Of a stretch of 64,000 bases of DNA, positions 7,132 to 56,716 are shown one piece after another (positions within the stretch are counted from its first letter, which is position 1; each line of letters starts with the position of its first letter). The DNA comes from Bryum argenteum (taxonomy: Eukaryota; Streptophyta; Bryopsida; Bryales; Bryaceae). A model generated the notes under the pieces. It was not told the origin of the DNA. It was given only the letters and a program-made list of their open reading frames with translations, and did not search any database. The position numbers were made by a program, and so were the translations under genes. The stretch lies in assembly GCA_037043015.1 (NCBI GenBank), contig CM073329.1, forward strand, positions 16,136,648 through 16,200,647. The letters run 5' to 3'.

Positions 7132-10100
7132 ATGCCAGTGATGAAGCGCTCGGAGAAGAACCTGCCGGAGAACGACCGGAAGGTCGTAGAAGCAAAGAAG
7201 GCGGCGGCGGAGGCCAAGAAAGCGCTTTCAGAGTCAAAGAAGCCTGCGGAGGCGAAGAAAATAGTTGGCGAGAAGAAGGCAGCGGAGTTTAGGGCCGCGG
7301 TTTTGAAGAAGGCGCATGCCTCGAAGAAAGTTGGGTCATCAAAGGATGACTCTTTGAGCAAGGGGGGGCCGTCGTCTTCAAAGGAAGCTGCTGTCTCCTG
7401 CCCTCCATCTTCGGGTATCGAAGAGGAAGAAGACGAAGATCATCTCGACAATGATCTCGATCTCGATGACGACGGCTTGGACGTCGACGCCCAGCTCGCG
7501 AAGATGCGGAAGGAGCCTCCTGCGCTTTTCGCTGAAGATTTCAAGAAGCTCGGTCTCGATGAGGGCGAAATCAACGCTCATCGCCTCACCGAGAAGGACG
7601 TGCCTCATGAGAAGGTGTGTCAGATATTTGGAAAAAGGTGGGGGCACAGAGGGCGTGCTGGCTGGAAGTGGCAGGGTTGCAAGAAGCGGGCCGTGCTTAC
7701 GCGCGTGAGGGATATCCATTGGCGGATTTACCAGCACTCGCAGAATTCCATGCCGTCGTTTTTGAAGGTTCAGTTTGCGAGGGGCATCACGCAAGAGGTG
7801 GCTTTCGGGGTGGGGTCGATTGATTGGTGCGCGTTTGCTCAGGAAACGAACGAGACGCAGAGGAGGGCAGTGAGGCTTCAAAGGGAGAAGCTCTTGTACG
7901 CCAAAAAGTTTGGTCTCCCTCCTACGAAGGTGACCTGGAAGCGGCTGAAGAAGGAGAAGGTGGACATACCGAAGACGCTGGGCTTGGAGACGCCAGGGAC
8001 TTCAAAGAAGGTGAGCAGTTTTTCACTTCTTGTTTCCATTGTCTTGTTGTTGAATTTTTAGGGTTAATTAACAGAGAACTGCCACCTTCTTTGACGGGTT
8101 TCTTTTATGGGATTTTGAGCAGGATGTGTCTGAGGTTTGTGCATCCCGAATACCAAACAAACAAGAGGTGGACACAGTGCTCAAGATTGCTGAGCGAGTA
8201 GAAAGGATTGAGAGTCTCATCAAGTTGTTGGGAGCTGAAATTATCGTAAGCAGAAACGAGAGGCAGGCTGCGTCATTTGCTCGGGACAACGCTCGGAAGG
8301 AAGTGGAGGGCTACGAGAAATCCCTCGACCTCTGCAACGACCAGTTGGCGTTCCTCAAGGCCAGTACAGATCCTGAAGCAGAGACTCGGCTTTGGTGTGC
8401 CGAACAGATGAAGACCAACAACATGTGCAAGTTGTCGAAGGCGCAAGAGGAGCTAAACGCGAAGGAGGCTGAGTTCGTGGCCGTAGATTCCCGGATGCGC
8501 TTACAGCAGAAGCAGTTAGCCATCTTCACCGACGAAGCTGCGGTGCTGAAGTTTGGTGGCCGACCGTCAGCCATGCATCCCTGGCCTGCAGTTTATCCCT
8601 CTAAGTCAGCCCTTGTTAGTGAGGAAGGGGAAGATCACACTAATTACATTGCAATCACAGTTTGTAGTTTGTGTGAATTCCCCTTCCCTAATTACGATAT
8701 TATTGTAGCTAGTTGTCTCCACCTCTACCACCCGTGGTGTGCTCTTGCTACATTCGGGAAAGGGGGAGGTTGTGTCCAGTATAAGTGTTTCCACGGTTGT
8801 GATTATGCATGGCTGCAGAGTTTTGGGTGGCCGATTGATTCTGCTGAGGCACAGGAGTACCAAGACTTGGAGGAAGGGCGTTGGTTGCAGGACCGAGAAG
8901 ACCTTACTCTTAGCGGGGGAGAAAGAAGGAAGGTACCAGATTCAGGTATGTAGCTGTCTCTTCCTAATGTGTACACAAAGTATACATGTAGTTGAGTAAG
9001 TGTGTTTGCCATTGGCTTCAGGAGTACTGTCGGTTAGGGTGTGTGTGTCGTTAATACTCTAAGCTGATCCGTCAATTGAATCCAACTCTGCTTTTGTACT
9101 ACAGTTACACTTCATGCAACCTCAATGAGTTCTTGATGGTTGTCATTGTACACTTTCTTTGACTGTTGTAGTACTTAAGGTGATAAGTGTTTGTAATATG
9201 GTAATCCTGGGTCTGATGAGTGTACTACTCGTTCTTTGAATTGTAGTCTTTGAGTATACAAAGTTTACAGGTGTGTACTCTTTATACTTAGGTAATGTAC
9301 TTTGTGTAATGTCCCACTACTTAAGCTACATATGGCCACCGTCCAGAGTACATAATGTGATAGTTTATGTACAATATGGAGTGCTTTTCAATACGACCCA
9401 GGATACCACGATGAGCCATTTTCTCTTCTCTTACTCAGTAGTACTTTGGCTCATGCACTTTGTACTAACTTCTCCACTACTGAGGGGTACCCTGTTCAGG
9501 TGTTTTGCTCGCAGAGGAGGATGATAATTCGAGCCCCAGCAGCAAGGGCGGTAACGAGAAGGGAGCATTACATGATGAGGACGCCAGTTCTTCGGACAAA
9601 GAGGACAACCTCAACGTGGGCTCAGCGAGCAAAGACAACGCCAGGAGGAACTCCGATGCATCGGAAGATCCGAGCACGCTTATCAAGGAAGCGGAAACGA
9701 GGAAGTCCATATCCCCTGCTGACGTTGGGCCAAGCGATGGGGCTATCGAGAAGGGGAAGAGACCAATGGTCGCGCGGTGCGGCGAGACGACTTTTAAAGA
9801 CCCGCTACTACAAAGAAAGCGTCAGATAGAGAAGGCGTCTACAAAGTTCCTCTCCACGAAGAAGCAGAAGGTTGCAGACGGGAGGCCTTCCCCTTACGGA
9901 GGTAATATCCCTATTCAAGGTAGTTGAAATTATGTGGATGCCATTTGATGTGGACTTTGCACTAACACGATTGGCGTTCTCATTTTGCAGGGTTGCTGAA
10001 GGGTATACCTCAGAGTGACTCCCAATCGAATGAAGACACGGCCTCTTCTAAAAGGGATGACGAATCGGGGGACGAAGAGGAAGACGACGACGGTGGCAAC

Positions 10101-11804
10101 TCCCCCGATGCTCCATCCTCACCGCACGCGTCGTCACCGCCCGTGCTTGCAGGAAACTTGAACGAGTTAACCCACGCCCACGTAGCTAAGAAGACCGCGA
10201 CACCCTGGGCGCTGGCTTCGTCGGTGACATCAGATGGAGAAGGCTCCAAGGACGACGAGGAATCTAAGGAAGGGGTCGCGCACGGGACATCAAAGAAGGC
10301 GGCAGAAGAAGAGACGGCCGTGGTAATTGAGGATAATGGCCGAGCGAGCAAAGAGGCGGAAGAACCGAGGGGATGACGAGGAAGAATCGAGGAGCGGAGT
10401 TGACGCCGAAGGTGACGACTGTGTGATGAAGTACTGAGGCGAGGAAGGTGGATCGCCATTGAAGGGCGCTGAAGCCTCTCCGCCCATGGAGATACCCGAG
10501 GGGAAGGAGACAGATCCTGCTCCGATGGACGAGGAGGTACCCTCGAAGGCCACTGCTGGAGGGAAGGGGCCAGATCCTGCTCCTATAAACAAGGAGGGAC
10601 CCAAGAAGGCCAGCGCTGGAGGGAAGGACAACGATCCGGCTCCAATGGAGACAGAGGAGGTAGAAGTAAGGGAGGCAGTTGAATTTAAAGTGGTTCACAG
10701 GTCACAGGGGAAGACTTTGACAGGGACATTGGCGACGCACTCACCTCCCCAGCGGAGGAAAATTCCGCCTGTTCCCAGGTTTGATGAGTCGGGTAAGGGC
10801 GGACCTTCATCGGCAAGCTCACCTTTGCCACAGATTGTATCACCTCCCAAGGAATTGCTGGTCAAGCTCACCTTCGCCACGACTTGTGTATGGCATGCGT
10901 GCGCCGGCAACTACAGGTAGGCCAATTACCCGGGCCCGACGTGCAATTGTAATGGCAGAGGAGGAACCAGCAAGTGAGCTCCAACAACCAGCAGCCCTAG
11001 CCATAGAACCAGCAGCAAAAGGCAAAGGCACCCTGAAGGGCAAGTCTGCACCCGCACCCGCCGTGGAAGAGGAGAAAGACGAGGAGGACTCCGGGGGCTG
11101 CGGCGGTGACGCACATGAAGTCCTGATGGACGGTGAGGAAGAGGTCGTCAAGGTCTACCCAGGACCTTCCCAAGACGAAGAGAAGTCCGAGTCTTCACCT
11201 CTACTTGCTGGGAAGGGCCAGAAAATGAAGACAATGGCGGGTCTCATCAAACCGGCTGTGGGGACTGCGAAGAAGATTGCGGTACGAAAAAAGAAGGGAG
11301 TGAAGCGGAACACCTAGTCTGGATGTGATTATTGTGGTACACACAATTGCAAGTTTCACATGTATGACTTTTTTTTTATTAATTAAATAACTAGTCCCTC
11401 CTACATGCAACGCAGGACCATTGGTTTAATCCCAAAGACATTTCACGAGGACTGGAGAAATTGCCAATTCCGGTAGCTGTGCCTGGGGATGGCAATCCCT
11501 CCATGCCGTTTTTTACCTATGTGCCACAGAGTGTTCTTTCTGAGTATGTTGTGGTCAACAATGCTAGAGAGAGCAGTTGTAAGTGTTATGGGCAGGATTG
11601 CTTGAATTGCGAAGATTCATGTTGCTGTATGGCAAAGAATGGTGGGAATCCTGTTTACACCGCAGATGGAAGACTGAGGGCTGATTGGATTCGGCAGGTA
11701 CGCATGCATGAGCCCGATTCTCAATTGATGTTATGTTTGTGGGATTTTTTTTTGCAATCTTTTCCCAAAATTCATGCTCCCAATGATGTTGCAGAAGTAC
11801 CAGA
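7132..11804 (+). pseudogene. Transposon-borne SUVR-type SET methyltransferase gene, 5' exons (coiled coil, RING-like finger, acidic linker, pre-SET)
   Basis: ATG 7132 opens a lysine/alanine-rich coiled coil, then an acidic stretch. Exons at 7132-8010, 8123-8945, 9515-9919 and 9991 onward join in phase through GT-AG introns. Exon 2 has a RING-like finger (CSLC ... SCLHLYHPWC). A long acidic, Pro-rich linker follows, with a one-base shift near 10370, a TGA at 10435 and another shift near 10900. A donor after 11281 joins in phase to 11416-11697, a pre-SET region (DISRGLEKLPIPV, C-rich SSCKCYGQDCLNCEDSCCC, YTADGRL). The next exon starts at 11795 and is cut after ten bases by element Q. The remainder is at 55920-56716 on the minus strand. 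SUVR-family proteins methylate histone H3 lysine 9 in plants; that activity here is inferred. Confidence 0.8.
11801..11804. repeat. Element Q target-site duplication, left copy (CAGA)
   Basis: CAGA ends the left SET-gene piece. The other piece begins, in coding direction, with CAGA (reverse complement TCTG at 56713-56716). Collapsing the two copies restores the codons AAG TAC CAG AGT GAG in the frame of both halves. Confidence 0.85.
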
Positions 11805-11832
11805 AACACACAATTAAGCAATTGTGCACTTG
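11805..11832. repeat. Element Q terminal inverted repeat, left
   Basis: This sequence reads AACACACAATTAAGC and on to GTGCACTTG. The same sequence with one change occurs at 56717-56744. Relative to the two SET-gene halves, the copies are in inverted orientation, as expected of TIRs of one element. Confidence 0.85.
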
Positions 11833-12329
11833 GCCAAGTGCGCTAATTGGCGCTCGATAACAATAAGATTCGGAGCAATTTTTTTTTTTCTTGAACTAGT
11901 AAAACAAAAATTCCATTTGCTTTTTTGCTATATTTTTGTAACAATTTCATTAAATATTGGTTTGTTGATGTGTAGGTAGGTGAATACTTTTCACTTGAAA
12001 TTGTGCATAATAGATATAATTCATGCTTATTCCATTTACAAGAACCTAATGCTATACATTTTGTTTCATGAAATGACTTTATAATGTTGTTCTACAAATA
12101 CATTTTGTAAGAGATGTAATGATAAAACATGGAATACAATGATAAAGTATAAGATTTAAAACTCTATATTTATTATTTATATATATATATATATAATTAT
12201 TGAATACTACAATATCATATACTATAATAAAACATATCATCTCTAAAGCAAACATATCAATCACACTATACTAGTCAACTAAACATCATATATGCTAAAT
12301 TATAATATCACTACAAAGTCTCCATCATC

Positions 12330-15300
12330 CTATGGTGATGCGACTCCCGTAGCGTATTCTATGGCTGTATTGACCATTTCAGCCAACACATCCTCCGGCA
12401 CCGGAGTATCTCCAAGTCTGATTGATGTAGACTGTTCATATCTAAAGCTACCACGGTCGCCATGCCGCGTGTGCCTTACGCCATCTGCATCATAATAGAA
12501 GCCATCCCTAAATGTCATTGGTGTAGTGAAGGTCCTCCTAAATTCAGCAACGTCCCCCGCTTCGCTATCTCTTGGAACAGATGGCAATATTGGTCCAATG
12601 CTTCCTCCAGTACCTTCTGTACTTCCTCGTGTCACAAATCCAGGCTGTGATTCAGTAGGCCCCAAAGGTTGCCTACCTCTACTCACAACTGAGAAAAACC
12701 TGAGAGAATCGGTATCATCTCTATCTGATTCCGGCAATTGAGAAATAGATATGTTCATTCCATCTACCGGTGTCTCTGAATGAACGTCCATTGTACGAAT
12801 ATCATCCGCCATGTCTATGGGTGTCTCCTCTATACAAACTTCCACATGCGGCAGCAACGTTGAAGGAACTACATCTCTCATAGGTGCTCTCCCCTCTTCA
12901 CCTTCATCTTCCTCTTCCTCTTCATCTTCATCTTCATCTTCCTCCTCATCTTCTCCTTCTTCTGTTTCACTGCTTCGCTGCGTGTCGGGTGAGCGACTGT
13001 CAGGTGTAGATTTGTCCGTCCCATATTCACGTGGCAATCTCTCACTGAACTGGGTGTAGAAATCCACATCATCGTCACCATCCCTCGGTAGTGGAATCTC
13101 ATCTTCAGTAGCATCTACATCGTCAGCAGCATTGTCCGTTCCACCTATGTTGTCAGACATCAATAAATGGCCATGGAAATTGTTGGACAACTCATTGTAC
13201 AAGAATGAAACTCTCTCGTTACAATTGTCAATAACAATGATATCGGATCCCTGGAAATTCGAATGCAGGATAGTCGGAATCGCAGTTGACATGCTACATG
13301 CCACCAAACCCCAACCTCGAGGCAAGTACGAATCCACAAGTCTTGATAACTCGGATGAAGATCTCTCGAGAGCATCAACAATAGAAGGCTCTTGTACTTC
13401 ACCACGATTATCGTCAAATAAAAGAGGAAGTCGGCGGCGCCCAGTAACAAAGTTCGGCTCAACAGATGCTCCAATTGGGTGTTGGAGGCAAATAATGATA
13501 TCACCTATTGGTTCAACTGCCTGCTGTAAGCGCCCTCCATTTGTAAAGTTCAAAGGATGATTAACCGAGCTCTGACCAAATGCCCAACATCCACGTCGAT
13601 GAGAGCAACCCTCCGGAAGCTTGAGCTTCGTAATCAATTCCTCGGCGGCGAACACGGCCGGTGGTAACAGGAAAATGACATTCCATCGTTCGGCGGTCGT
13701 CATCCATAAAGCCAACTGTGCAAATACTCTTGTGAACTGTTCATCTTCCCAATGACCATTGCCATGCCTTCCACCGCCACGCCGACAATCGATAATCCAC
13801 AAATATGGCTGTGTCAACTCTGCATACTTTGAACAAAATAGTTCTCTTTTACATCGAATCAAAAGTGGTTCCTCTCCATTGATTTGGCCTGGCCTTTGAA
13901 CGCGCAACTGCCACTCCCAATTGGCCCTATTTGCAACTCCTCTACGTAGAGATGGTGCATTGTGGCCTTGCCCTCTTGCTGCAACAACTTCATAATGTAC
14001 CTTGATGAAAGGAGGGATGAGGTCAGATATGTCTTTCAGCTTCGACACCTTCTCTCACTGCGGTGTACTCCATTTGGTTCTTGTTTTGCTATCCAACAAC
14101 TCGGCAAATTTGTCAAGTTGCTCCTTGCCTCCTGGTAAATACTTCCGTACAGATATACGAAAGAAATCTTCCATGGAATTTGGTGAAGATTCCTTGTTCT
14201 CTACCATCAACCAACGAATGGTATTTATCACCGCTTCTCGTCTCATAATGCGCTCACATACACCAGCAACGGTGCGAGTCCTTGGATTCTGCTCTTTAAC
14301 GCCGTTGAAGTAAAAAGCTTGACGAGGTCTTCGTCCATCCTCGCCAACTGGCTTAGCTGAACATGCTTTTGCAACCTCTAGATAGTACGAACTTGGAACT
14401 CTACCCAACGGCCTCAACCAATGTCCGGTCATCCGCTTCCGCCTTGGGCGTACATCTACATTCGGATCCAGACTCTTCTTTAGTGCCAACGCCTTCCACC
14501 TCTTCTCTTCATCCTTGCTGTAAAACAAGAAGCCGTTCTCGTAGTCCTTGGTCACTCGAAGGGCAGCTTCAAAGCATTCATCGTTGGGATTCCATGCATG
14601 TTTAGTTAGGTCTTCCATGTTCTTCCCCAAGGTAGACGTCGTAATCTTACTGTCACCTCCGTAGGGCAGTTTCCGCACGGCACTTGCTGCGCTCACCAAT
14701 GCAATAGCCCTGCGTTCATCATCCGAACGAACTGAATTATCAGGCCTACCATACAGATTCCATATCTGTCGGAGCTTCACCAAATCCTCACTCATGGTGG
14801 AAAGTTGTTTTCTTTGCCACTCCGCATTGTTGACTTGTACCGACTTGTTGATGTAAAGTCGTGGATTATCATACACAACAAAGGTAGCTTCCCGTTGCTC
14901 AAACGTCTTCTGAAACTCAGAATGAGTGATCTTGCCGCTCATCCATTGCTCCTTCACATACTTGCAAGCGGCTACAACATGTTGTCCATCCACAGGCTCC
15001 CAAATGATATGGTCTTGAAGCCAAGATAACTGAGAGCCCACAGCACCGTGAACGGATGCATCCCCATTGCTTAAAAACATCCGTTCAAACTCTCGTGCTG
15101 CTCCATTAACCAGGAAATCCACTCCTTTACGTTCAACCATACCAGTGTCGGTAACGATATCCACAAGGTACCTGATAGGACGAAGTACCAATTTACTCAC
15201 TCCGGTCCTGTTCTGAGGATCTCGTAAGAATGTATATATCTCTGATACCCTCTGTTGCGACAAAATCCGATGATTTGTCTCCGGATTCACCACATCGATA

Positions 15301-16295
15301 ATGCGGTCAATGTGTGCCTTGAAAACAATGTCGCCCCATATTGAACCTCTCGCAACTTCTTCTTTTGTAGGCACGGGCGCTTTCAGAATCTTAGAAGCTG
15401 GAACAGATGTTGGGATGTCTGCTTCTTCGTCCGAATCCCCTGATGACTGGTCGGGAATGTTGTACAACTCGTCATCTACGGCCGACAATGTCACAGGAAC
15501 ATCCGTTGTAGATGTTGACGATCTTCGATGGGTAACGATTGGTCTAGCTACCGATCCACGACCTCTGCCATGCATTGGCGATGCTCTGTCCCGTGATGTC
15601 GAGGCTCTGCCACGCGGTGGTCGTTGAACAGAACCTGAAGCTATGTTGCCTTCATCACGTCGTGGCCGCTTAGATGGACGACCAATTGTTGATGTACGAA
15701 CAGTCGATGGTCGCAATGAAGTGGATGGCCGCCAATCCAATTGTGTCGGCCTTGCTAACGCACGATAAATAGGTTCGGTCTCCTCTGGATCAGCTGGTAG
15801 ACTTGCATGTTCAAGACTTGCACGTTCTGGCTCAGTCCGATGTAATGCCTCATACGAAATATGAGCACGCATAAATCTTCTAGCTCGTGCCACATCCTCT
15901 TCAGATAACGCCAAACATGCCAACACATGCTCATGTCTAGCAGTACGCACCGCAAGATCTGTCTTGAGCCAAAATGTCTGCAACGAGGTTATGTTATTCA
16001 ACCGCCCTGGATTTTGAAGAAGATCTGTAGGAATAGGTGCGAGAAGCAACTTTTTTGAAAGGGAAGTCTTTGCCGGCCTCTGACCAACCCCCGGTACACA
16101 AATTGCATAGATCATATCGCCTGGTCGAAGATTAATTGCCCGAAGTTCGGCGAAGGGCTTCCCCAATGCTGATGTGCGCTTCCCGATTTGAAATGGATGT
16201 TCTGTAAGCCATAAAACTGGCCTTGATTCCGCGTCCACTGCGATCCACCATCCGTACTGCTCCCAGACCTTGTCGATTGGAAGCGTTGGTGCCAT
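12330..16295 (-). pseudogene. Element Q protein: ParB-like domain plus degenerate beta-class DNA methyltransferase-like domain
   Basis: A single frame of about 1,321 codons runs from ATG 16295 (MAPTLPIDKVWEQYG) to 12330, broken only by one TGA at 14057-14055 (WSTPQ-stop-EKVSKL). Residues about 1-100 are a compact, unrecognised domain; 130-330 are basic and Ser/Arg-rich. Around residue 435, VDGQHVVAACKYV resembles the DGQHR/GNHR motif of ParB-like nuclease folds. The C-terminal third has YLWIIDCRRGG where motif IV (DPPY) is expected and then LVDSYLPRGWGLVACSM followed by DIIVIDNCNERVSFLYNEL, matching the placement of motif I in N6/N4-type methyltransferases of the IV-before-I (beta) order. Both catalytic motifs are changed, so it may bind rather than methylate. 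An acidic run lies at about 12900-12970. Confidence 0.6.
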
Positions 16296-17134
16296 GATGT
16301 CCCTAATAAGAAACCTGACTTGAATCACACAATACATAAAGAATTGTAAATACAATTATAAAAAAAAAAAAACCTTTAGCTCTTTCTTGCTTTCTTAAAA
16401 TTCATATTGTAAAATGTTCTTTGTATAAAATATCTATGTTGGTTGAAAGGTCGCGTTTCATAAAATTATGAACATCAGAGCAGAATTGATAACATGGTAC
16501 CAATGTTTTGCAAAATGTTAATGGTTAGTGGAAGACAATTTATACGATCACGTATTTTATCCTAAACCATATAAAATTTTATTTAAATTCAGGAAGACAT
16601 TAAATATTCTACGACTAATACCTTCTTTTTAGAGTAATTTCAATATATAAACTTTATATAAACTTTATCACGCTTGAATACGATGCCATACATGTGGAGT
16701 ACATGACACTTTTTTATGCTATGGAAGCATGTACTGGGAGATGCAATATTGTACTAAATCATAAGTATTATTTGTGATTACATCAAGCTCATAACAAATA
16801 CGAATTCTTGTAACTATCATACATATCACATGTTTCACCTTGTAAGAAAAATAGAACTTTCAATTTACATTTTAGAATTTACAATTTTCTCGTATTACAA
16901 TGTACGAATTACAATTTATTCATATTTTGAATTTGGAAAGGAAATTAGGCTTCATAAACTTCATTTCATTAGTTGGACTGAAAATCATTTTTCAAAGTAA
17001 GAGTCGACTCCCACAAATCACTCAACTTCATCTTATTCAACTTGTACAAATTCAAAGCTACTATTTCATGATCTAAACAGCAAATGAAAATAAAACCTTC
17101 AAGATGATCACAATCTGGGACGTTACTGTGGCAT
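16296..17134. other. Element Q non-coding DNA
   Basis: AT-rich sequence upstream of the ParB-methyltransferase start. I see no exon or repeat of note before the P terminus; it presumably holds that gene's promoter. Confidence 0.5.
17126..17134. repeat. Probable element P target-site duplication, left copy
   Basis: CTGTGGCAT precedes the P terminus; CTGTGCAT follows the right terminus (31296-31303). The copies differ by one base deletion. Eight to ten bases is the usual MULE duplication size. Confidence 0.6.
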
Positions 17135-17330: not shown

Positions 17331-17617
17331 CTTTGGATTTTTTTGTGGTGAAGACACGTTGTTCAACCAAATTGAACCGAGTTTGATCACTTGGACAATT
17401 CATCATATATCCAAAATTAGTGACGACTGTGACACGGAAAACATGGTATTCATATAAATATATTAATGTTTAGATATATCGTGTTACATAATGTTTATAG
17501 GTCTAGCCAATAAGGAAAACTATAAAGAGTAAACTAGTAAATAAAGTGAATGGGGTGAACTAAGAAGTAACGTGGTCTAGTACCCCCCTCTCGAGAATTG
17601 TCTTGACCTCGTTGAAA

Positions 17618-23537: not shown

Positions 23538-24249
23538 GTAAGATCGACCTGTTCAAACCCTAAACCATTCTGATGAGCCTAAACCCTCATGAACTGCTCT
23601 TCGTGATAATGTTCGTCGTGGTCCTGTTCGAATGATTAGAGGCATCGGGGGTGTAACACCCTCGACGTATTCTGAAACTTTAAGTAGGTAAGCCGCTGGG
23701 GTTGCTTGGTTGAACCCCAGCACAGAATGAGAGCTCCAAGTGGGCCATTTTTGGTAAGCAGAACTGGCGATGCGGGATGAACCGAAAGCCGGGTTACGGT
23801 GCCAAACTGCGCGCTAACCTAGATCCCACAAAGGGTGTTGATTGATCTGGACAGCAGGACGGTGGTCATGGAAGTCGAAATCCGCTGAAGTACGTCGCGC
23901 GCTTCAGCGCCATCCATTTCACGGTGGTCATGGAAGTCGGAAGTGTAACAACTCACCTGCCGAATCAACTAGCCCCGAATCAACTAGGTCCTGTCGTGGT
24001 CCTGTTCCGAAGGCTCCCTCGTGTACGAGGCTGGTCTCAGTTCTAGGTCCGAGGGCTCCCTCCCACCACCTCAAATATCCTAGATAACGAATCTCAACGA
24101 TTATAGAATCTCGTATCTCATCGCTCGTATCCCATAGCCCGAGTCTCGCGTTGCCTGGGCCGGCATTCTTTCAGGCAATTCTACCCTGTTCTTCTAGTTA
24201 ACTCGAGCTGGATTACCTGGTTGTCGACGGGTTACTGATGGCAGGGGAT

Positions 24250-30630: not shown

Positions 30631-30956
30631 ACTTAGCCTCCCTATAGCTTTTGGCAACAATATTCGATATTTTTGAATTCGTATGTTTTCAACTCATTTA
30701 TGAGTTACTATTACTTATTTATACATCTTGGCGTATTGGTTATATATTAAACCGTTTTAATTCTAATTACCATGTCTAAACCGCTCTAATATTTTTTTGA
30801 TCACGCCAAATCAAATTTGTTGTTTGAGTGACAATCGGTGTATATAAAACTCAGTTTGTATTAAGAATGTTTGTGAGGTAATTGGAATTTTGAAACCATA
30901 ATATGTAAATCGAACAATTTTTTCCTTAAAAAAAAAAAATCTATTTTTAGGGGTTC

Positions 30957-30970
30957 CCTCGTGTACGAGG
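30957..30970. promoter_or_regulatory. Palindromic box downstream of the P methyltransferase gene
   Basis: CCTCGTGTACGAGG, 327 bp after the stop codon. Its flanks match the inverted copy at 19091-19114 over about 50 bp, so the two may be a duplicated unit in opposite orientation. Confidence 0.85.
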
Positions 30971-31179
30971 AAGCCCCCTACTTCTGACAATTATGTCACC
31001 TTCTCTCGCCCTTCACGACTTTTGCTTGAGCGAGAGAAACCCTAAACCACCTAAACCCCTAAAGTGATGACGTCTGTAATGACGTCAGCCCTAACCTATT
31101 GTATAGTGTACCCAAAAACCTAAACAAAGTGACTTAAGTCCACGGGTTTGGGAGCATTTACTTCTAAACCCTATACCAG

Positions 31180-35910: not shown

Positions 35911-38900
35911 TCAGACGGCGCCTCTACCACGCCCACGACCCCCTCGTCCACCTCGTCTTGCCCTGTTAAGCCTAATGACATGTTGCAAAATTACATCCTC
36001 CCCTGTCGCTGCAGGTTCGACTTCTTCCTCCCCAACTTCTCTTTCCGGGCGTAGTCCTTCAAAATCCTCATCTAAACCCATTTGGAATAATTCTGCATCT
36101 TCGTCTTCATTACTGGGCAGTATTCGTCTCCCTCGCACCTCCTTCCTCAGCACTACCCTCCACCCTGGTGACTCTCGAGCTTCGGAAAAAAATACCTGCT
36201 CACAATGTTTTGGAAAAGCAAAACTGTCTCGACAAATTGTAGCATATCTTCTGTCATGGTTAGCTAAAGTAAATCCCCACCTATCTCGTTTTATTGTGGC
36301 ATTCCCACCAGCGTAGTTTGCCCTGACAAAATCGCACACTAACACTACGAGACAATGGCGCCTATAATTTAATTCCAAAATCTCCTCAATGTGGCCCACA
36401 TATTCTACATCTGCATTTACTTGATTGTTATCTCTTCTACCGTTTCTGCATACCTGTCTGAACGTAGCAGCGACACCACTATCACACGTTTTAAGAGGTC
36501 GTTCAGAGCTGAGCACTCGGTAATGATTGCCAAAAGCATACATAGATTTGTAAGCAGCTGCAACATTCAACGGTCCTCGAGCTGTGTCCACAACTCTTGA
36601 ATCTACTCTGGCCCCTACCTGATCATCACGTCTCACTTCTTCTTGTACCCACTGTGCAAAGTCAGGAATTACTGATAATTCACGTGGGTACGCGAACCTC
36701 GTTCTCCTTCCACGTCGACGTTGTTCTCGTCGATACCGTTCCCTTTCTTCATCCCGCTCTCTCTCTGACTTCTCCATATCTCTCGTGACATGAATCTAGT
36801 AATCTTGAGTAGGGTACAATATTAAGGTTTAGAGTACCGACACTCCAATAATGCTGTTGGACAGGGAAGACAAAAATTGTAACAAAAAGCCTCATACAAG
36901 TTTTTACCACTAACTTATAATATAAAAGAGCTTCTAGTATTACAGCTATTTTTCTATAAACCCATCTGCATGCCACTTCAGATATATAGGTATTGTAATT
37001 CGAAACCAACACTAAGTCTGTAGAATTGAAGTTGTCAAAACTGTGAATAAGGAAGTTTTTTATCTTACTTCAATTTCGACACCCATTTGCACCTGCTCGA
37101 ATACTTAAAAAGTAATACATATAGGTCATAAAGTTCAGAATGTACCTTCTATATGGCTCCATGTGTTCAGTGTTGTCTAACACAAACTCATGGATCAATT
37201 TCTGGAACTGTGTGCTCATTGCTCAATCTCGGTTGGCACCTTCCAGAATTTCGTCGTACATCGCCGGTTCTTCTTTGTCATCCCAAGCTCGTTTTGTCGT
37301 TGGAGTATATGCCGATAGGTACTCATTCAAGAATCCTATTGATTCCTCTCTAAGATATCCATATGCCATACTACCTTCTGGTTTAGCCTTGTTTTTCACA
37401 AACCCTTTTAGTCCTTTCATGTACCGCTCAAATGGGTACATCCACCGAGTGTGTACGGACCACAAATAAACAATTCTTCTACCAAATGTAAAGGCAAATG
37501 CATCATGATTACAAACACCGACGGCGGTAACTCCTTCTCTAGAGTGCAAACTGTTTCTGCAACCTCTTCTAGCATAGAATTCTTTTTTTCCGCATCTACT
37601 ATCTTTGCTGTTATTTTTCTAAACAACCGACTAACACGCATGATTGCTCCAACTACTTTCGGATGACCTACATTTCTCAACGGGGTATTACTGTTGAAGC
37701 AATATATGGAAATCATGCGTCTTCAACCTCGCAATCTTCCGTCCGAAATCCTCCGGCTCAATGCTCCTACGTAATTAGACGGGAATTTCAAATCCCGAAG
37801 AGTAGTCAGAAATTCTTGTTGATGTCTTTTTGTCAATACGTATGGTGCGTCTGGCTTAAAGTATGAATGACCATCAGCATTTCGTTGTAAATGCAAATGT
37901 TGTCGGATGCCGCGGGCTCGCATATCTTCTCTTGACTTCGCGACATCTGTTTCACCAAACAACGTACGAAGCAAATTCTCACACACATTTTTCTCACAAT
38001 GCATAGCATCCAACGTATGCCTTGTCGAGAGTTTCTGAAAAATAGGCACAAAACCAGCATCAGTACATGAAGTGCTGTTATTTACCTAATTTTCCTTTAG
38101 TACAACTCCCTCCTGAAAGCTTATTGACTTTGGGTTCAAAGGGACAAAGTTAACTATGCTCAATCACAGATATGTAAAGTGGCAAGGATATAAAAGTAAT
38201 TTGAAAGGTTAATTCATGACTACCATTACAATTTGTATGATATTCGGGTTCAACCGTTATATTAGAGGTCATGAATCATTTCCTTGAATCATTTCTCACA
38301 CTAACATTTTCTACTCATATTAAGGCAAATTCTGCCTAACTTTAGTTAATTCCATACAACGCAACACTTACATGTTTGCATGGGCATCCTTTCAATGCCA
38401 CAATCCAGTAACATTAGTACATAAGTACAATTCAGAGCTCAATAAAAACAAACATTTTATTTGCCTCATGGTTATATTAAATGGAAAGCACTAATTGCCA
38501 AAAACAGTTTCTCAAAAGTAGAGACGTTTCATTCTTACTGTTCGACAAAGTTTACATACCTTACACACATTCTGGGTTCTACAAATAGTAACGGCATTGC
38601 AAATTTCACAACACAGGACCATTACAAATACACAGGACCATCTCCAAGACCATGCGCTCATATATCAACCATATAAATGGCACCTGTTAGTTTCAATTAT
38701 TTGTAGGAAAAACTTCAAATGAAAATAGAAATTACCTCCCAGTACGGTAGACTGAAGAGGATACTGATCCTTTTCACGCCAGTTTGCTTCACAGGATCAT
38801 GCTTCGAATTTTGTCGTCCCCCTAGTTCTAAGTATGTTGCTCTCCATGCTCCTCGCTGTATGATAGTCAATCCAGTCTGCCGACCTGGTGCCTCATCGTA

Positions 38901-40614
38901 GTTCGGACGACCGTTGAAAGCTGCTCGAGCTGATCGCCAACGGTGATTTCGACTTAGCCACCTGCGATTGCCAAGAAAGACTGTCTTGTGTGCATGTGCC
39001 GAATATTCTGCAAATGTACCTTCACCACAAACAGGGCATCCAGCGTACCCTTTCCCTGATTGTCCCGATATCAACGTGTAGGCAGGATAGTCGTGAATGG
39101 TCCAGATCAACATACCACGCAATGTGAACTGCTGGTTTTCAGCAATGGGTTCCGACATGTCTACTGCCTTGACTCCCACCCAGAGCTTCTTCAACTCATG
39201 AATGAGTGGTTGTAAATATACATCGATTGTGTCTTCAGATGGAGAGCTCGGTCCAGGTATTATCATAGTTAAACAAATGAAAAACCTCTTAGTCACGAGA
39301 TAGGGGGGCAGGTTGTATAGTACTAACATAACAGGCCAGATAGAATGCTTCGAGGATTGCAAGCTATGAGGATTTACGCCATCTAGGGCAAGTCCCATTC
39401 GAATGTTTCTATCCTCCCTGCTAAATACTGGAAACTGCTCTTCTATGAAACGCCATTGCTCACTATCTACAACAGACCGCATTTTCCTATCTCTAGAATG
39501 GTTGGCACTATGCCATCTCATATGTTTTGCGATTAAGGCAACGAAACATCCTTCTCAACCTTTTAATGATTGAGAAGTATCGTAAAAACTCGACTAGGAA
39601 TGGAAGTAGATCCCGCTATATACCTTGACTTACGGCATTTCGGACAATGGTCTAGGTTTGCATTCTCTTTCCAAAACAAGGTTCTACCACAGTCACAACA
39701 ATGTATGGTTTCGTGTGACAAGCCTAATTTTAGTAGCAACCGCTTCATCTCATATGAAGATTTGGGGCAAGTATTTTCAGCAGGTAGGACATCGTACTTC
39801 AGAAAGGTTAATACCTCGTCCAAGCAATGATGACTTACCGAATACAGTGTGCACAATGACATAAGTATAATGCTGAATTGTAACCTGCTTGTTTTTGAGC
39901 CAAGAAACAAAGGCTCTGCCGCTTCTCGAAGTAGCTCCTCCATTACAGGCGTTCTATCCGGTTCTTCATCTTTAGATGACAAGTCATCGAAGTCTAGCAC
40001 TGCATCAGCTTCATCTCTTACTTGGGCGTGAATTTCGTCCGCCCGAGCGAAATAGTTTTCTGCCATGTCATCAAAGTTAATGTCAGTATTAGCAGGGGCG
40101 GCTTGAAATTCTTCTCCATCTTCAAAGTCCAAAAACACATCCTCCTCCTCCAGGTCTGTTGGCTCTTCTTGAAGCACGTCACCATCTTCAGTTGGTAAAA
40201 CATCCTCATCTCCGTCAGCAAACTCCGGCTCTTGTACCGGTCGGTTTGGAATTCTCTGCACCAAGCATGCAAAATTGTGATTAATATGTATAGGGATTCA
40301 GAAATTGATTCCAATTATTCAGCACAAAATAAACAAATGCAATAGAAATTAATACATAACATAGTTTTGTATCCATGGTGCAGCAAGTAATTGGGGCACA
40401 ATTAGGTTGTGCGTTACTCACAAGAAGAGGGTGTATGAGTGTAACGTCACGTCCAAATTTTCGATGATGAATTTCAACAACCTGCACCAGTTGACTTCTA
40501 AACCCATGGCATTTTCGGCATCCACGGGTACCTTGGAATGCCTTGTCGAGCTGCCAAAGCTTTCTCTATATGGTACGCTTCTCCCAGTCTTGCTTCTCTC
40601 ATTGTGTTGACCCC
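35911..40614 (-). pseudogene. TNP2-type CACTA transposase
   Basis: Reading leftward: N-terminal exon(s) near 40614-40480, an acidic region (40250-39950) and a CxxC pair (CCDCGRTLF...CPKCRKSRY, about 39660). The tnp2 transposase core follows: MGLALDGVNPHSLQSSKHS, VTKRFFICLTMIIPGPSSP, RGMLIWTIHDYPAYTLISGQ, GYAGCPVCGE, NRRWLSRNHRWRSARAAFNG. Then come the DAMHCEKNVCENLL exon (from 38043), a DUF4218-like part (LEKELPPSVFVIMMHLPLHL, WMYPFERYMKGLKGFVKNKA) and a DUF4216-like exon (36777-35911; VQEEVRRD, RWGFTLANHDRR). Small shifts near 39590, 39530, 37725 and 37470 break the frame. TNP2 cuts CACTA ends. Confidence 0.88.
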
Positions 40615-46465: not shown

Positions 46466-46878
46466 ACCTACATGTTATTATTTCTTTTGTCAATAAGCAG
46501 TCATAGTTCATTTATTTGCATGATCCTGCAATGAAGTTAATTTGAAGAAGGGTGTAGCTACAATTACAGGACACAATTTGATATTCATGGTTGTACGTAG
46601 AGTTGAAGCTGCAAATTAACTGAAAATTACTTTAAGTTTGCATCAGAGTTTTGAGAGACTGTGGTTGGACATTGAAGAGCTCAAGTCCAAGACATTAGTA
46701 CTGTGAAAGAACAAATACTAGTACGATTTCTAAGCACAAACGATTGAGTGATAATTCGAATAAAGCGTGATTTGAGGAAGGTCAAAAGTCGAGTGTCCTC
46801 TCACGGTCTAGTTGGGTGATTTCAAGAGACATTAAATATCGTGTTGGTTTTAGGAGAGAAGCATGCGGAACCCGCAAG

Positions 46879-49479: not shown

Positions 49480-49975
49480 AGGTGACCTTCCAATAGGTCC
49501 TCGATTGACACTGATTCTAGGTCCTCGCTTGACACTGCTTCTAGGTTGTTGAGCGAATGCCTGCAAGAAGGTAGAGTGTAGTAAGCAAATTGAATGAATC
49601 TCATCATGAAGAGCTTATTACTTAATTTCCCGTTTTTCTACTACACGCTCAGCAGATAAGCCTCACCTATGCAAGTAGCATCAAAAATCATTCGCTGAAC
49701 GAGTTTAAATCAATGTCGAGATTGGTACCTCAATGTCGAGATGGGAATGATTCTGCTGACATCACGAAGTCACCGAACTTGGAGTGGCCGGAACTCTCGA
49801 GATTGACATGATTCTGCTGACTCCGAAGTCACCGAACTTAGAGTGATCCTTGAACCCCGACTGCCGGCTGTGGCAGAACCGCTGTGTGTCCCGCAGGCGG
49901 TGGCACGGCAGGGCCATGCATGGGCGCTATGTCTCCCACTCGCAGTTGATCACCGGGGTATGTAGGGTGAAAGCA
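49480..49975 (-). mobile_element. Element Q fragment with 5' part of the interrupted exon
   Basis: On the minus strand an acceptor (CTTCTTGCAG) precedes the exon 49560-49480, which contains a doubled motif (SVKRGPRI, SVNRGPIG) and runs into the C insertion. Upstream, about 49955-49840 may be an earlier exon (PGDQLRVGDIAPMHGPAVPP). A 44-bp direct repeat (CGAAGTCACCGAACTT) lies at about 49748-49845. The fragment ends where the A terminus begins. Confidence 0.55.
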
Positions 49976-50962
49976 CACTAGGGTGGCTCAAAAAGTACGT
50001 CACAATTGCAGTTTCCAGGGAATTCTTCACTCCAAGTGTTCTTGTAGTTGATTCATTTGGCTAATGAATAATTTTCTTAGTAGTTTGTCAATGTAGGGAG
50101 CAATATCTTCAACCTCCAAGTGTTATTTTTCCGACACCCATTTAGAACTATAAGAAAAGAGTACTTTTCCCCAATTTGGAAGTACTGTTCTATCTGTGAA
50201 AAAGCCACAAAAGTACTAATATCTTGCAAATTATAAACCTAAATACCATAGTGAACCGGGTTTTTAGAAAGAGCACACTATAGCCTTCCATAAACTCTAA
50301 TGCCCCATGTTAGCTTCTCTATGAGTTTTGGACAAAATGCGGTCAAAGTACTAAAATTACAACGGTCCATATTGTCGCCCTAAACTAAATTTGTTTGAAA
50401 TTTTTTTGACTTTTGAGGATTTATGGACCGTGATCTTGAATGGGGTGCTGAAATTGTCAATTAATTTGGAGTGTGTATACGTCCTTTGTAAGGAGGTAAA
50501 CATCCAAGTTCTGGTACTGTTTGGTACCAAGGATCCTCTTGGGGTTTTTGTTTAGTAGTTTCCGTAGCCGCACTGCATTGGCTGCTGATATTTGACAGAT
50601 GCCACTGTCAGGTGACATTGTGATGCGACGCCAAAAAAGTGCCCCACCATTATTGCGATGACGACTGGCTTATTGATGGTACTGGGTAACGACGGCGCGA
50701 TCGAAGAAGGATTCGGCGGCACTTCGTCTCTCTCCGTTGTTCCCGTTTGTTCAGCGAGGGTTTTTGCGATCGCTGTTTTTTGCCGTTACAATTCGAGATC
50801 CGAGGGTTTCTGCAATCGCAATTTTAATTCCCGTTGCCTCTCGAGTCTCGGGCTGGCTACGAACTCACTGCTGGGTCGTGCATCGGAAGGGGCAGTGAAT
50901 TCCAGCGATCGTGTGCACTGCGGTTTAGGGTCTGCTTTTGTTGTCTGCGCATTCTGTACACA
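49976..50962. other. Element A right terminal region
   Basis: Terminus CACTAGGGTGG followed by non-coding DNA up to the transposase ATG. It presumably holds that gene's promoter. No palindrome like the one at 6584 is present. Confidence 0.55.
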
Positions 50963-53900
50963 ATGGGGAACACTCGGTATGCGTTGCGGACAAGGGGAGG
51001 TGTGAAACGCCCCGGCCCAGAGGGTCGATTAGAGAGAGCTGTAGAAGCTGAAGTCTATCGATTAGTTAGGAATGAGGCCGCGAAACTTCGACAACGAGCA
51101 AGGCGTGAGAGGCTGGAGGAGGCTGGTGCATCCAGAATGGAGTTACAGCGAGCAGTCGAAGGGTTTGATTCGCAATCGCGTTTCTCAGTGCGGAGCCGCA
51201 GTCGTCTTTCGAACAAGATATCGAAGACAATCCAGGAATTGCTGGCGCCTTGTGAGTCTGTGGAGGCCAAGCGAGATGTTTTAGAGGGCGTTTTAAATCA
51301 CAACTCGATTTGGCCGTCTCTTCCTGAATACTACCCCCGACCTGCTGAGGCGAAGTGCATTTACGTTTTCTTGGAGAGTTACAGGACTGAACTTCAACTT
51401 GTGAAAGGAGCACATTTGAAATCCTTGTTAGCACGCAAGAGAGCGCTCCTCGACGCTGCAGTTAGTGAAGGCACCCAAGGGCAGCGTGTTTTGTCCCGTG
51501 TTCTTCAAGTACATCTGCTGTTTTGCTTTTTTAACTCTTTTTTGAATTATGCAATTGTTGCTCCGATACTCGGAGCTGAGGATAAGGTCCGTGTGTTTTT
51601 GGGCATCACCGTAAAGGCCCTCATTTCCGTAGCGGCACCAGATGTAAAGCTTCATTCAGACTCTGCAATTATTGCTCCAGCAGTTAAATAATCTAGACTG
51701 GGAATCGAGGTTCCTAAGCTTCCTAAATTGTAAATCGACTAGTCAGAGTAGGTTCGGCCAGAGTTTAGGATTTGCCGTCAACTGCTAACCCTAAAATACC
51801 TTCTGCCGCATGTTTTATTGCACAGGTATACCCCCGAAATATTACTGCTGCCCTCAGTCGGAGGGCAGGATTTGACATTGTTAACCCATTTGAGAAACGA
51901 GACTTTGCAATTCTAGAAAGAGCGAAGCGGCCTGGCTTGACAGGAGTGGTGAAAGGAGTGGTGAAGAGTTGGTGGCACGATCAATCCCAGGTTTCGCCGA
52001 ACAAAAAGGATGTCACGCTGCGGCGGGTTGGACCAAACACTTACGATGTTCACGCTACACATTTCCTAACAGAAACACAGGTGATACTCTTTTCTACTGC
52101 ATGTATTCTGGTAGAACACGTAGGTGGTAGTTCCTCGTAATCATTATGGTGAAGGTGATTTGATAGCTGTTTGCTGCAATTATTGATCACGCTTTCTTGC
52201 TTGACGCTCTTCGTTCGGTTGAATACAGTAAGAGTTAGAAGTTGCTGGCAGAGTTTATACTTGCAGTTTAGGGTCTGGTTTTGTTTGTAATTCTTGCTAC
52301 TTGAGGGTGGAGGACTGGTGTACTTCTTATGTTTAGAGCCATGACATTACACCTCTGCTGTCATGTAATGTGACTTGTCTTTGCTTTAGGGTTTGCAATC
52401 TAAAAGCCCTGATACAGAATATTGTACAGTTGCTTTATGTAGTACGAAGAATCATGCCATGTAATGGTCATTGTCCTTGGTATAATCGCGAATGCTTACT
52501 CAATTATATTTAGATTCCATGTTGTAGTTCCGAGCATGCTTTCCTACAGGTACGTCTGCTACATTTGAGAAGTGTTCGCTGGTAGTCATGTGCTACTCTA
52601 CGGTAGTTTGACCATTGATAGCAACTGCAATTGTGCACGGAGTACCTTGTCGAAGAGGTGTAAGTACAAGTCTACTTTCTGGATAGTATACCACAAATAC
52701 GCTTTTGGACATGTTAGGTAGTCTTTGATACTACCGACCGGTTTGGTGTAGTACAGTTTAGTGCATGTTAGTAGTCGTGACACTACTAGTAGGCTTGGTG
52801 TACAGTTTAGTGCATATTAGGTAGTCTTGACAGTACCCAAAAATGGTGAGACTTCCTATTTAGTACTACTTGGTTCCTTTGATACTGTAAACTATGCCTA
52901 AATTAGTCCGATGGGTAGCCTTCTTTTGGTACTTCAACTTGATCGGGGGCACTTCTACGGCTTGTCTGCTCGGTTATGAGTACCTTCTATAGTACTAATG
53001 TACGATTGAGTGTAATGTTGTATCGCGGATACTATGGGTATGCAGCTGGAGTACTGAAGGTAGTTTGTTTTTTGTGTGACAGACTCAGTTATTTTTAAGA
53101 TTCAAAGAGAGTCATCCTGAATGCAGGATCAAATTGCGGGCCTTTGAGAAGCTGAAACCATGGTATGTGAAAACTTTAAAAGACCAAAACACGTGTTGTT
53201 GTATGTATCATGTGGAGATGGACTTAATGAGGGAGGGCTTGAATGCTCTTAGAGATTCAATGAGAGGGTTACATGCTCGAAGTGGATGCACTTGTTCATG
53301 TGAGGTGTGCAATACTGAGGTGGGGAATTGTCATGCCCATGTACTCATGTTTTTGAACGTTTAACTCTGTTGTGGTCGGCCTGTGTTTGTCCAAAAGGTG
53401 AGCTTGATAAGTGGCACAATCTTGAGTGTGTAATGGGTAGTTGTAAGGATTGCGGGGTAAAGAGGCTAAAATTCTGTCCGGATGAGGTATCTGTTGCTAC
53501 TGACTTGACTGTGAAATAGAAGTGTTTTGAGTATGTTACAATAGCGGCGGTTGATGGACGTCCGAAAAAACGCATCCAGCAGGTATACAAGGAAACGGCT
53601 CCGGGTGAGTTCGTCACGTACCTGAAGGAAACGGTATCAGCTTTCATAACCCACAACTTTGTGGCGCAGTGGCAGGATGAAGAGTGCAGGAAAATGATGA
53701 TGAATGTCCCTGCTGGTGTATTGATTTCACATATTGATTTCGCTGAGAATTACACCTTCGCAATTCAGAATGAGATCCAAAGTATGCATTGGCATTCTTC
53801 TAGTGTCACCATTCTGGTCCATATTACCCTCATTAGAGCTCCACCTACAGAGGATGGTGAAGAAGGTGGTTTTGTCAAACATACTCATTATTATATCTCT

Positions 53901-55058
53901 GATGATAAGATGCATGATAGTTTGTTTGTTCAGCATTGTTTGATGTTGCATTGGAATTGGGTGTTGAGTCAAGGTGAGAAACCGGTTGAGCATTGGGTTT
54001 TTAGTGATGGATGTGCATCACAATTCAAAAGTGCCAGACCTATGTATTTTGTGGCTCGATATGCTAGTCTTACAGGGGCTACAATGCGCTGGAATTACTT
54101 TGGCTCCGGTCATGGCAAAGGTATTACATTTCCCAGTAGTTCTGTTTCTTTCATGCACTTTTGTATGAAACGGATTGCATGCATATTTACTCTATATTGT
54201 CTAAACTTACAGGTGAGTGGGACGGAGCAGGAGCTGTGGTTAAGCGGGCACTTCGGACACACCAGATTCAGCACCCAGAAGATGAACTGTCGAATGCCAA
54301 ACACTGTGTAGACTTTCTGAAAACTAGATTCTCTCATCGTGTCTTATGTGCGTATGATCAATCAAGGGAGGTGCCGATCAACAGGGAATTCTGGCATATA
54401 GCCGTAGAGAATGTCGATCGGTCCATCGGTTGGAATTGTGAAACCATTCGTGGTTCGAGCAAATTTCATTCGATCATCGGCCCCTCTTTGACTGATCCTA
54501 CGCTTTTATTGGCTCGCAATCTTTCTTGTTTTTGTGCCCCTTGTATTCAACAGGACTGGAGCCGTTGCGAGCAGCAGTCACATGTTCGACCTTGGCGTGT
54601 TGTGCACCTGGAGCCAAAAGACGTGGGAGCGCTCCACCACATACTTGACGCGAATGAAGGGAATGAACCACCTGAAGATTCCCAAAGGTGGCCGCATGGG
54701 GGAACAGATGTTGACCTCGTCGACGACGTCGAGATTGGCGACAACTTCATGATACCCGACTCTGCAGGAAGATGAAGGTGTGGAGTTTTATATACTTCAA
54801 TGTACACGATCGAAGTTTGAGTTGCAGCAAGATTTGCAAGACGCATGGGGGGGGGATTACCATGTGGGAGATTCTATTATTCAGGGCTACTATTATCAAA
54901 AATATGGTAGGTCGCACAACAGTTACGTGTTACTTGATGCAAGTCCGTTAGCGCATGTATACTCTCATCTTGTGAGGGCCTTTAAGTTTCCCATGCGGTT
55001 AGCACCGTATCGAGTTAGAGGTAACGATGCGGTGTATAAGATGATGAGAAGAGGTTGA
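50963..55058 (+). pseudogene. Element A DDE-like transposase, unassigned family
   Basis: ATG 50963 (MGNTRYALRTRGGVKR) opens a basic N-terminus. Exons 50963-51508 and 51826-52080 and the start of 53083 join in phase through GT-AG introns. The third exon has a cysteine-rich zinc-binding region (NTCCCMYHVEMD, CTCSCEVC, CVCP, CKDCG). The core reads HIDFAENYTFAIQNEIQSMH, HYYISDDKMHDSLFVQHC, WVFSDGCASQFKSA and NYFGSGHGKG, then after the intron 54121-54212 EWDGAGAVVKRALR. The Asp residues of DFAENY and SDGCAS and the acidic/His residues near GHGKG are candidate catalytic positions. A shift near 53340, a TAG at 53517 and a shift near 54650 inactivate it. CACTA-like ends suggest the wider CACTA/Mirage/Chapaev group, but the core is not TNP2. 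Confidence 0.65.
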
Positions 55059-55919
55059 TCTATCATCTCACGAGTCCTTAGCAGATTGGTGGGCAGGAGA
55101 TAACCCTTGAATGTGATTGTAATCACGCTCAACTTTTGCCTACCTTTTTGGTACTTTAAGGACCCGGAGTACATGTACATTATTCACTATGGATAGTACT
55201 TCGCCCACTGTTTGTAGTACTTTATGGTACTTCCTAATGTAAGATTTGATGTTTACCAAAGTCTACAACGTGTATGGGCTCAGTAATGGATTGCTCCTTA
55301 TTTGCTATGGGACACCTCTAAGACAGGGGATTTACTTCGCTCCTATAGAACTAATTATCCAATGTACACATTATCCAGTATTTACAAAACTCTCGCAATT
55401 ACCAAAACTCTCGCACAAGGAAGCACATATCTAGTATTTACAAATAAGCTTGCTCCTGCTCATGTTGCGATCTGCACGGGCTGTTATTGGTCCAAAATAA
55501 ATGCAAGGCAGAGAATAGCCAGCTTATTGTTGCTACCATGAGGAGACTTAATAAGGTACTCATATTCAACATAAAACGAAACCGCAAAAATTACAAAAAT
55601 GACACTGCTACGTTGTTCATTCATCTGTATGAACAACTTCTCAAATAGGAACGAGATTCCTAGGAGTAGAATTCAGGGCCTTCGCAAGAGCCATGGCCAC
55701 AGGAAGCGTAAGAACCACAGAAAGAGCCACCCAAGATGTTCTCCCCATACCAGCATAGATTAGCCCAAGCATCCCTTCGAGTCCTCCAGTGCTGAATCTA
55801 ACCTTTATTAAAATATGTACAGAAATGCAAGGAATAAATGCGTATTTAAGTTACTACAGCAGTCACATGTTCGACCTTGGCGTTATATGTATACTGTGGA
55901 CGGTCTAAGGTACCGTGGA
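55059..55919. other. Element A intergenic region between convergent genes
   Basis: No exon is evident. A 27-bp stretch (about 55857-55883, CAGTCACATGTTCGACCTTG) repeats a piece of the transposase coding exon at about 54574-54600. Confidence 0.6.
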
Positions 55920-56716
55920 CTATCTGTGACGACGTTTGAGCTTCATCCAAGCAGTAGCCCGACACCGAGCACTTCCGCACAAGCATGGATTGCTACTCGA
56001 CCCTGAAAAAAACTCCTCTCCGTAATCCTGCAAGATAGAAGTTCGCGGTTCAACAAAACTTTCCTACAACCCAAATACTTGAACCCAAAAAATTATGATA
56101 GTGATTCCAATATTGCAAGTTTAAAGATCTTACCCAAGTCAACTCCTCAAGGGCACGAATATTTCGTTTCGCAAAGAAAGCCACGTGATAGTTGTAAGGG
56201 TCTTCAAAGTTGATTTTCACGGGCACATCAACGAGGTTGGCATCTTCGCACCTGTGATTCTCAAACCGTGCCACATTTCCATACTGTGTGCCATCCAAGC
56301 ACAACGCATCTCGGTCATTCGCTGCTGCCTCAGCCTTCCAGTCTGCGTCTAAGCTAAGTGTGTACCAATACGTCCTAGTGCCATCCTTCTCCCTCTGTAA
56401 TGACTCCGAATTTGTAGAAAACTTGACCTACATACTCAAAAAGAAATGAACCACTTGGAACCGGCTCGAGGGTCCTAACTCCCCATCCCTTCTGGCCCGT
56501 CCAGAACACTTCAACCCTTTTCGTCATCCCTCGTTGGACCACCCTGTTACCACATGACGACTCACAAAAGCATGTGAGATTGCACTCATAAATAAAACTT
56601 CGTGCAAAGTGTCCATTACACACTCTAGAACCGTCTTCGGGATGCCAGGTGAGACATGAGTCTGCGCAGTAACAACCCTCGCCAGGTTGACAAAATGTGG
56701 TTCGAGCCTCACTCTG
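55920..56716 (-). pseudogene. SUVR-type SET methyltransferase, 3' half (rest of pre-SET, SET, post-SET)
   Basis: Reading leftward from 56716, the frame continues the pre-SET cysteines (CYCADSCLTW, CNLTCFCESSCGNRVVQRG). SET motifs follow: GWGVRTLEPVPSG, EYVGQV, ARFENHRCEDAN (catalytic NHxC), EELTW ending at 56134. After an intron, exon 56027-55920 reads DYGEEF and post-SET CLCGSARC, then TAG. All motifs for S-adenosylmethionine and substrate binding are present. One extra base near 56395 shifts the frame between EYVGQV and the NHRC part. It is the missing continuation of 7132-11804: joined at the Q target site the frames agree. The expected role is histone H3 lysine-9 methylation in the nucleus. 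Confidence 0.88.

Follow-up and report, generated by a model that had tools for sequence, protein, structure and literature searches.

A transposon family of Bryum argenteum carrying a SUVR-type SET gene, described from a copy cut by a second transposon

Transposons are the main targets of plant H3K9 methylation, and plants silence them with histone-modifying enzymes of the same kind as the putative SET protein considered here. How, then, did a gene of this kind come to lie in two halves about 45 kb apart on opposite strands among nested transposons, and of what use would it be to the element that carries it? We addressed both questions for a 64,000-nucleotide stretch of the Bryum argenteum genome (C9:16136648-16200647, hereafter the window) by searching a genome of 258.8 Mb in 25 contigs. 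A preliminary description, made from the letters of the window, had read the two halves as one gene of an element A that was interrupted by a second element B and could still be joined in frame. The gene model is given below, with the support for each part in brackets; six close copies of A are termed c1a, c1b, c2, c5, c10a and c10b.

7132-8010, plus strand: exon 1, N-terminal region (open frame; GT donor in both copies covering it)
8123-8945, plus strand: exon 2, RING-like motif (weakly matched by Pfam RING profiles at E 0.022 and 0.054, under the curated cut-offs)
9500-9901, plus strand: exon 3, linker (splice sites and frame)
9991-11281, plus strand: exon 4, acidic linker, whose frame is broken in the window copy (15 stops; none in c2, c5, c10a and c10b)
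11416-11697, plus strand: exon 5, pre-SET (PF05033, E 4.1e-10 in 11395-11814)
11795-11804, plus strand: start of the SET exon, 10 bases of which the last four are CAGA, the duplication made by B (AG acceptor in five of six copies)
55920-56716, minus strand: remainder of the SET exon (56716-56134) and post-SET exon (SET, E 2.4e-9 in 56427-56053)

In all six close copies fetched, the sequences matching the window at 11804 and at 56716 (or 56715) meet with 3-4 bases of overlap, and CAGA, which stands at both junctions in the window (11801-11804, plus; 56716-56713, minus), is found only once in the uninterrupted copies c2 and c5 when these are read letter by letter. Since the copies are continuous and CAGA is single in c2 and c5, the halves belong to a single gene of a single element, which another element has cut. 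The preliminary description was thus right that both the pre-SET and the SET half lie within A (6320-11804 and 49965-56716) and that B, a TIR element, cut the gene with CAGA as its target duplication. Its proposed splice signals also hold in the copies, with GT at 11281 in five of six and AG at 11416 in all six; altogether ten proposed splice sites read as GT/AG in c2, c5, c10a and c10b wherever covered; c1a departs from this at three sites and c1b at two.

That the window gene could still be joined in frame is true of the junction, but not of the gene. Exon 4 carries 15 in-frame stops in the window, 13 in c1a and five in c1b, against zero in the other four copies, and near 56410 the window SET exon differs by 1 nt in length from all six. 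Because the frame is broken in two other exons, the window copy is no longer a joinable gene, and we read it as dead, with its frame intact at the junction only. The SET exon is open in one frame up to ELTW in c2, c5 and c10b, breaks later in c10a, and has no open frame in c1a and c1b; damage is not confined to the window, as the RING-like exon has lost its frame in c2 and c5 and a stop interrupts exon 1 of c2.

A plain insertion of B is ruled out by the strands of the gene halves, as such an insertion would have kept both on one strand; an inversion is needed. The surroundings of the gene are composed as follows.

3413-59605, plus strand: Ty1/copia retrotransposon enclosing all parts listed here (LTRs and Pfam domains)
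3413-3801 and 59217-59605: its LTRs (98.5% identity between them)
3998-6319: its gag-protease-integrase part (rve, E 2.9e-14)
From 57144: its reverse transcriptase part (RVT_2, E 4.5e-60)
6316-6319: left target duplication of A, TACA (compared with 49961-49964 on the minus strand)
6320-6341, plus strand: left TIR of A, 22 bp, starting GGG (sequence)
6320-11804, plus strand: element A, 5' half of the SET gene (joined to 56716 in all six close copies)
11805-49845, plus strand: left part of element B, with other insertions within (similarity to a relative on C3)
35914-40297, minus strand: EnSpm tnp2-type genes nested in B (Transposase_21, E 1.3e-66; DUF4216 weak)
49846-57140: inverted block (follows from copy continuity and the B and Copia comparisons)
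49847-49964, minus strand: inverted 118 bp of Copia, with the duplication of A at 49961-49964 (adjoins the Copia 5' part in a copy at C8:2035236-2035971)
49965-49986, plus strand: other TIR of A, inverted along with its block (sequence)
49965-56716, minus strand: half of A with transposase and SET exons, inverted (copy continuity)
50828-54772, plus strand: multi-exon gene for the DDE transposase of A, with the DDE core in 53520-54772 (genome matches; fold of a homologue)
56717-57140, minus strand: right 424 bp of B, inverted (99.8% identity to the end of the C3 copy)

The reading frame of the Copia can be followed to 6319 and then through the inverted 118 bp (49964-49847), and from 57144 it is again on the plus strand, the two Copia pieces joining end to end without loss, and the C8 Copia copy is uninterrupted at the site where A inserted. 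A relative of element B, 13.4 kb long, lies at C3:7344367-7357798; the left part of B is 94.7% identical to it over 1873 bp from C3:7344367 onward, window 49500-49845 matches C3:7350564-7350909, and between the left part (to 49845) and the right 424 bp the window lacks about 6.5 kb of the relative. A single inversion of 49846-57140 together with loss of B sequence explains this layout, and the order of events reads as Copia, then A into Copia, then B into the SET exon of A, then the inversion. Recombination between two inverted B copies was rejected as the cause, because the right B piece ends internally in B and not at a TIR. The earlier account of one transposon inside another therefore stands for B cutting A, while the inversion, the surrounding Copia and the amplification of the family had been missed. 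It is very improbable that the opposite orientation of the halves is instead an assembly error: nested repeats are readily misassembled and the window is known from the assembly alone, but it contains zero N, and a simple flipped scaffold piece would give neither the Copia pieces that fit without loss nor a B that is short by about 6.5 kb.

The Copia break (49847/57144; loci L061 and L064) falls within a few bases of the site of another insertion in the C8 Copia copy, which is about 13.6 kb long with a 5-bp duplication, AGCTG, and TG...CA ends. At this break a 10-base palindrome, GCTGTACAGC, has been struck twice, by the inversion in the window and by the insertion on C8.

What kind of element is A? 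The sequence CACTAGGGTGG, which the preliminary description gave as its ends, is exact at 6331 and 49976; it proved to be the inner half of a 22-bp TIR that starts GGG, the 11 further outer bases having been overlooked. Allowing one mismatch, this 11-mer has five matches in the window against 0.53 expected, and across the genome it has 80 and 74 on the two strands, compared with 15 and 11 for the reversed control. Five two-ended elements, about 11-13.5 kb long with the 22-bp TIR, are all flanked by a 4-bp duplication, namely TACA (window), ATTA (c2), AGTT (c5), CACT (c1d) and CTGT (c5b), and the empty target of the c2 element was found in the window at 30569-30997. The transposase faces the SET gene. 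A Pfam scan of its ORFs gave zero matches, hence none to Harbinger or tnp2 profiles, and its RNase H-like DDE core is supported by the fold of a homologue; one homologue set comprised the window ORF and 34 of 120 listed homologues. A is thus a TIR DNA transposon in which the genes for a DDE transposase and for the SET protein converge.

Two known classes were tried for A and rejected. The ends of EnSpm/CACTA elements begin CACTA and their transposase is tnp2, whereas A ends in GGG with CACTA lying 11 bp inside and has no tnp2 in its scanned ORFs; the tnp2 gene at 38718-39554 is part of another element. HarbingerS elements have a Harbinger transposase and a 3-bp duplication, whereas that of A is 4 bp and its transposase ORFs are without a Pfam match. 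Sola elements combine a Sola transposase with a 4-bp duplication, and A agrees with them in duplication length, the sole feature compared.

The amplification of this family across the genome is, in our view, more important than the cut copy itself. The SET piece has at least 152 genome matches and the transposase piece 53520-54308 at least 145. When 150 of the 152 SET matches were merged into 146 loci, a scored transposase was found within 12 kb of 97 of these and was convergent with the SET gene in 96, compared with a mean of 2.2 under random transposase placement (rounded lengths for C7, C8 and C11). The other 49 loci, without a scored transposase within 12 kb, include host-like SUVH genes, and the two of these examined both encode SRA, Pre-SET and SET, which is a plant arrangement. 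Copies at about 45-57% SET identity retain the order N-terminal region, RING-like motif, linker, pre-SET and SET, with the gene directed towards the transposase, wherever the fetched stretch covers it. The exact 11-mer occurs within 10 kb of eight of the 82 SET loci on C1-C5 (random mean 1.0), and because it lies near so few it marks few subfamilies. Pairing of ends on the same contigs, with 98 of 100 listed ends used, also yielded five A-type pairs only 405-595 bp apart (C1:40746657, C2:22801010, C3:4771006, C3:9380662 and C3:28735307), which are probably non-autonomous elements.

The preliminary description had further placed the RING-like and SET exons in one gene, and the copies make this likely. 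After seven of the 134 listed genome matches were left out as pieces of one locus, 127 RING-like loci remained, and for 92 of them a SET match lies no more than 12 kb away; in 91 of these the RING-like part lies upstream on the same strand, and one is odd. The remaining 35 include the locus in the window, which is unpaired because its gene is split by 45 kb. It is nevertheless conceivable that a RING-like gene and a SET gene are merely neighbours with separate transcripts, given that the later linker is weakly constrained (see below) and that the product of exons 1-4, used as a protein query, gave no match at E 0.001 among 7990 candidates scored. Against such a pair of genes, the predicted splice signals are conserved in the four copies named above wherever these cover them, and exon 4 shows an uninterrupted frame between the linker and the pre-SET donor in four of six copies (432, 452, 528 and 472 aa in c2, c5, c10a and c10b, respectively), with length differences that are multiples of three; we regard two separate transcripts as unlikely. 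A 60-bp tandem repeat at 10501-10643 in exon 4 varies in copy number by frame-keeping steps in these four copies.

Turning to the enzyme, the Pfam Pre-SET (plus strand) and SET (minus strand) matches listed above come with GWG, NHRC, ELTW, DY and CxCx4C motifs readable in the window letters, as had been noted from the start. Other copies agree, as L010 and L024 both hold Pfam SET, and the Pre-SET of L024 scores 27.9 bits, just below the 29.1 cut-off. Among 16 open SET exons, GWG is altered in two and NHRC is NHCC in three, while NH.C and E[LF]TW are present in all 16 by choice of the exon end. The best solved relatives of the SET part are EHMT1 and EHMT2, and among named homologues Aegilops SUVR4 scores highest, at 38% with 95% of the query covered; eight closer homologues (59-75%) come from read assemblies without protein names. 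In a tree of 35 rows with midpoint root and Aegilops as the one SUVR4 source, the transposon SETs group with these eight proteins (86/85, a grouping drawn as open) beside the Aegilops sequences, and all of them stand apart from SUVH, SUV39H and EHMT (99/95). The predicted structure is confident for the SET part and poor for the pre-SET part. By sequence, the SET of A is of the plant SUVR type, and its protein is a putative H3K9 writer.

Have the copies kept this protein under selection? Of 29 SET loci (L010-L038), 16 have an open exon of exactly 186 codons, and six disjoint pairs of such exons gave a pooled pN/pS of 0.19, with 93 synonymous and 60 nonsynonymous changes (P 4e-24 in a binomial test of neutrality), which indicates that the SET codons are under purifying selection between copies. 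Pairwise dN/dS (NG86) was calculated for copies against the window, and as these non-independent comparisons all share the window, the pooled pairs are the cleaner result. Pairwise ratios for the SET pieces of close copies are 0.13-0.29 with at least seven changes and 0.58-0.61 where there are three. The RING-like exon gives 0.25-0.41 in three of four copies and 1.44 against c2 on six changes; linker exon 3 with the first part of exon 4 gives 0.34-0.54 (c2, c5, c10a and c10b), and the remainder of exon 4 gives 0.48-1.26. The transposase pieces show 0.22-0.66 except for the ORF 51769-52137, where ratios of 2.4-8.8 on at most 2.5 synonymous changes, an excess of nonsynonymous over synonymous change, make the frame or status of the ORF uncertain. 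As pseudo-frame controls, intron 2 gave 0.62-0.99 and intergenic sequence 0.17-0.79, the low values resting on two and seven changes.

By a small margin of belief we favour the reading that this is a TIR family with a transposase and a SUVR-type gene, whose working copies write H3K9-type marks on transposon chromatin. Working copies, where they exist, would make an H3K9-type methyltransferase, and the use that we judge most likely is that it writes or reinforces heterochromatin on copies of the element itself or at repeat targets, with the result that the element may restrain itself and be steered into repeats and tolerated there. The RING-like part may provide a ubiquitin link, as WIYLD does for the host SUVR4. 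Three insertion sites were viewed and all are repeats, namely Copia for the window copy, a sequence that recurs in the window for c2 and, as judged by eye, short repeats for c5, a faint hint of insertion into repeats. More tentatively, and with some doubt, it is possible that a plant transposon family of about 100 copies or more has made a RING-like-joined writer of H3K9 heterochromatin its standard second gene, that selection has kept the enzyme, and that the element writes its own heterochromatin for self-restraint and homing to repeats.

The main rival takes the enzyme for a means of anti-silencing, whereby the element would evade silencing because its methyltransferase competes with or misdirects the H3K9 enzymes of the host, or modifies some other substrate, much as has been proposed for Vandal proteins and transposon TET/JBP enzymes; on removal of the gene this reading predicts the opposite change in element expression. 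Known transposon-borne chromatin modifiers are mostly read in this way in the excerpted text of PMC12730594, and the altered GWG or NHRC of some copies could mean changed activity; the SET codons, however, are under purifying selection and the enzyme class writes silencing marks, and escape from silencing seems to us possible but rather unlikely. A SUVR gene captured once and carried along without use to the transposon is highly improbable: many copies have decayed and the 49 of 146 SET loci without a scored transposase nearby would suit a passenger, but the pooled pN/pS of 0.19 over six disjoint pairs and a gene order kept in copies at about 50% SET identity argue against it. A transposon that carries a writer of this class and keeps it under selection would offer a direct test of whether transposons gain by self-silencing, by steered insertion or by jamming the host system.

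SETMAR resembles A in that a SET methyltransferase and a transposon became joined in its history, there by fusion of a SET gene of the host with a single mariner transposase; a SETMAR-like fusion was rejected for A, where SET and transposase are separate, convergent in 96 of 97 pairs, and mobile. Fungal transposons with TET/JBP dioxygenases and plant transposons with Vandal anti-silencing proteins likewise encode modifiers of chromatin or DNA methylation, but their proteins are read as removing or opposing silencing, whereas the SET protein of A would be one that adds a silencing mark. SET genes in DNA transposons are already known from Phytophthora, where HarbingerS and MuDR elements encode such a methyltransferase (PMC12730594, citing Kojima and Jurka, 2014), and this was the only precedent brought up by searches of an open-access library for SET genes in transposons or plants. 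A is alike in carrying a SET histone methyltransferase gene and differs in its plant host, 4-bp duplication, transposase without Pfam match and SUVR-type SET joined to a RING-like part in one gene model; the host, the transposase family, this gene model, the scale and the measured selection were not found elsewhere by these searches. Arabidopsis SUVR4, with a SET of the same clade, deposits H3K9me2/me3, binds ubiquitin through WIYLD in vitro and is reported to act on transposon chromatin, according to excerpts of PMC7218100 and, for the last point, a title cited there. SUVR4 is a host gene with an N-terminal WIYLD, whereas the gene of A is transposon-borne and RING-like, with no WIYLD match in 7129-8058 and 8072-8950 (exons 1-2) at E 0.1. 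If our reading is true, an apparent expansion of SUVR-type genes in a genome may really be transposon cargo.

Some further features of the window were observed. The nested block holds a eukaryotic LSU rRNA fragment at 23581-24025 on the plus strand (Rfam RF02543, 225 bits), and the left of B has two minus-strand ORFs, 12333-14054 and 14058-16355, of 574 and 766 aa without any Pfam match. A direct repeat of 82% identity flanks the Copia element from outside, at 1625-1891 and 63742-64000.
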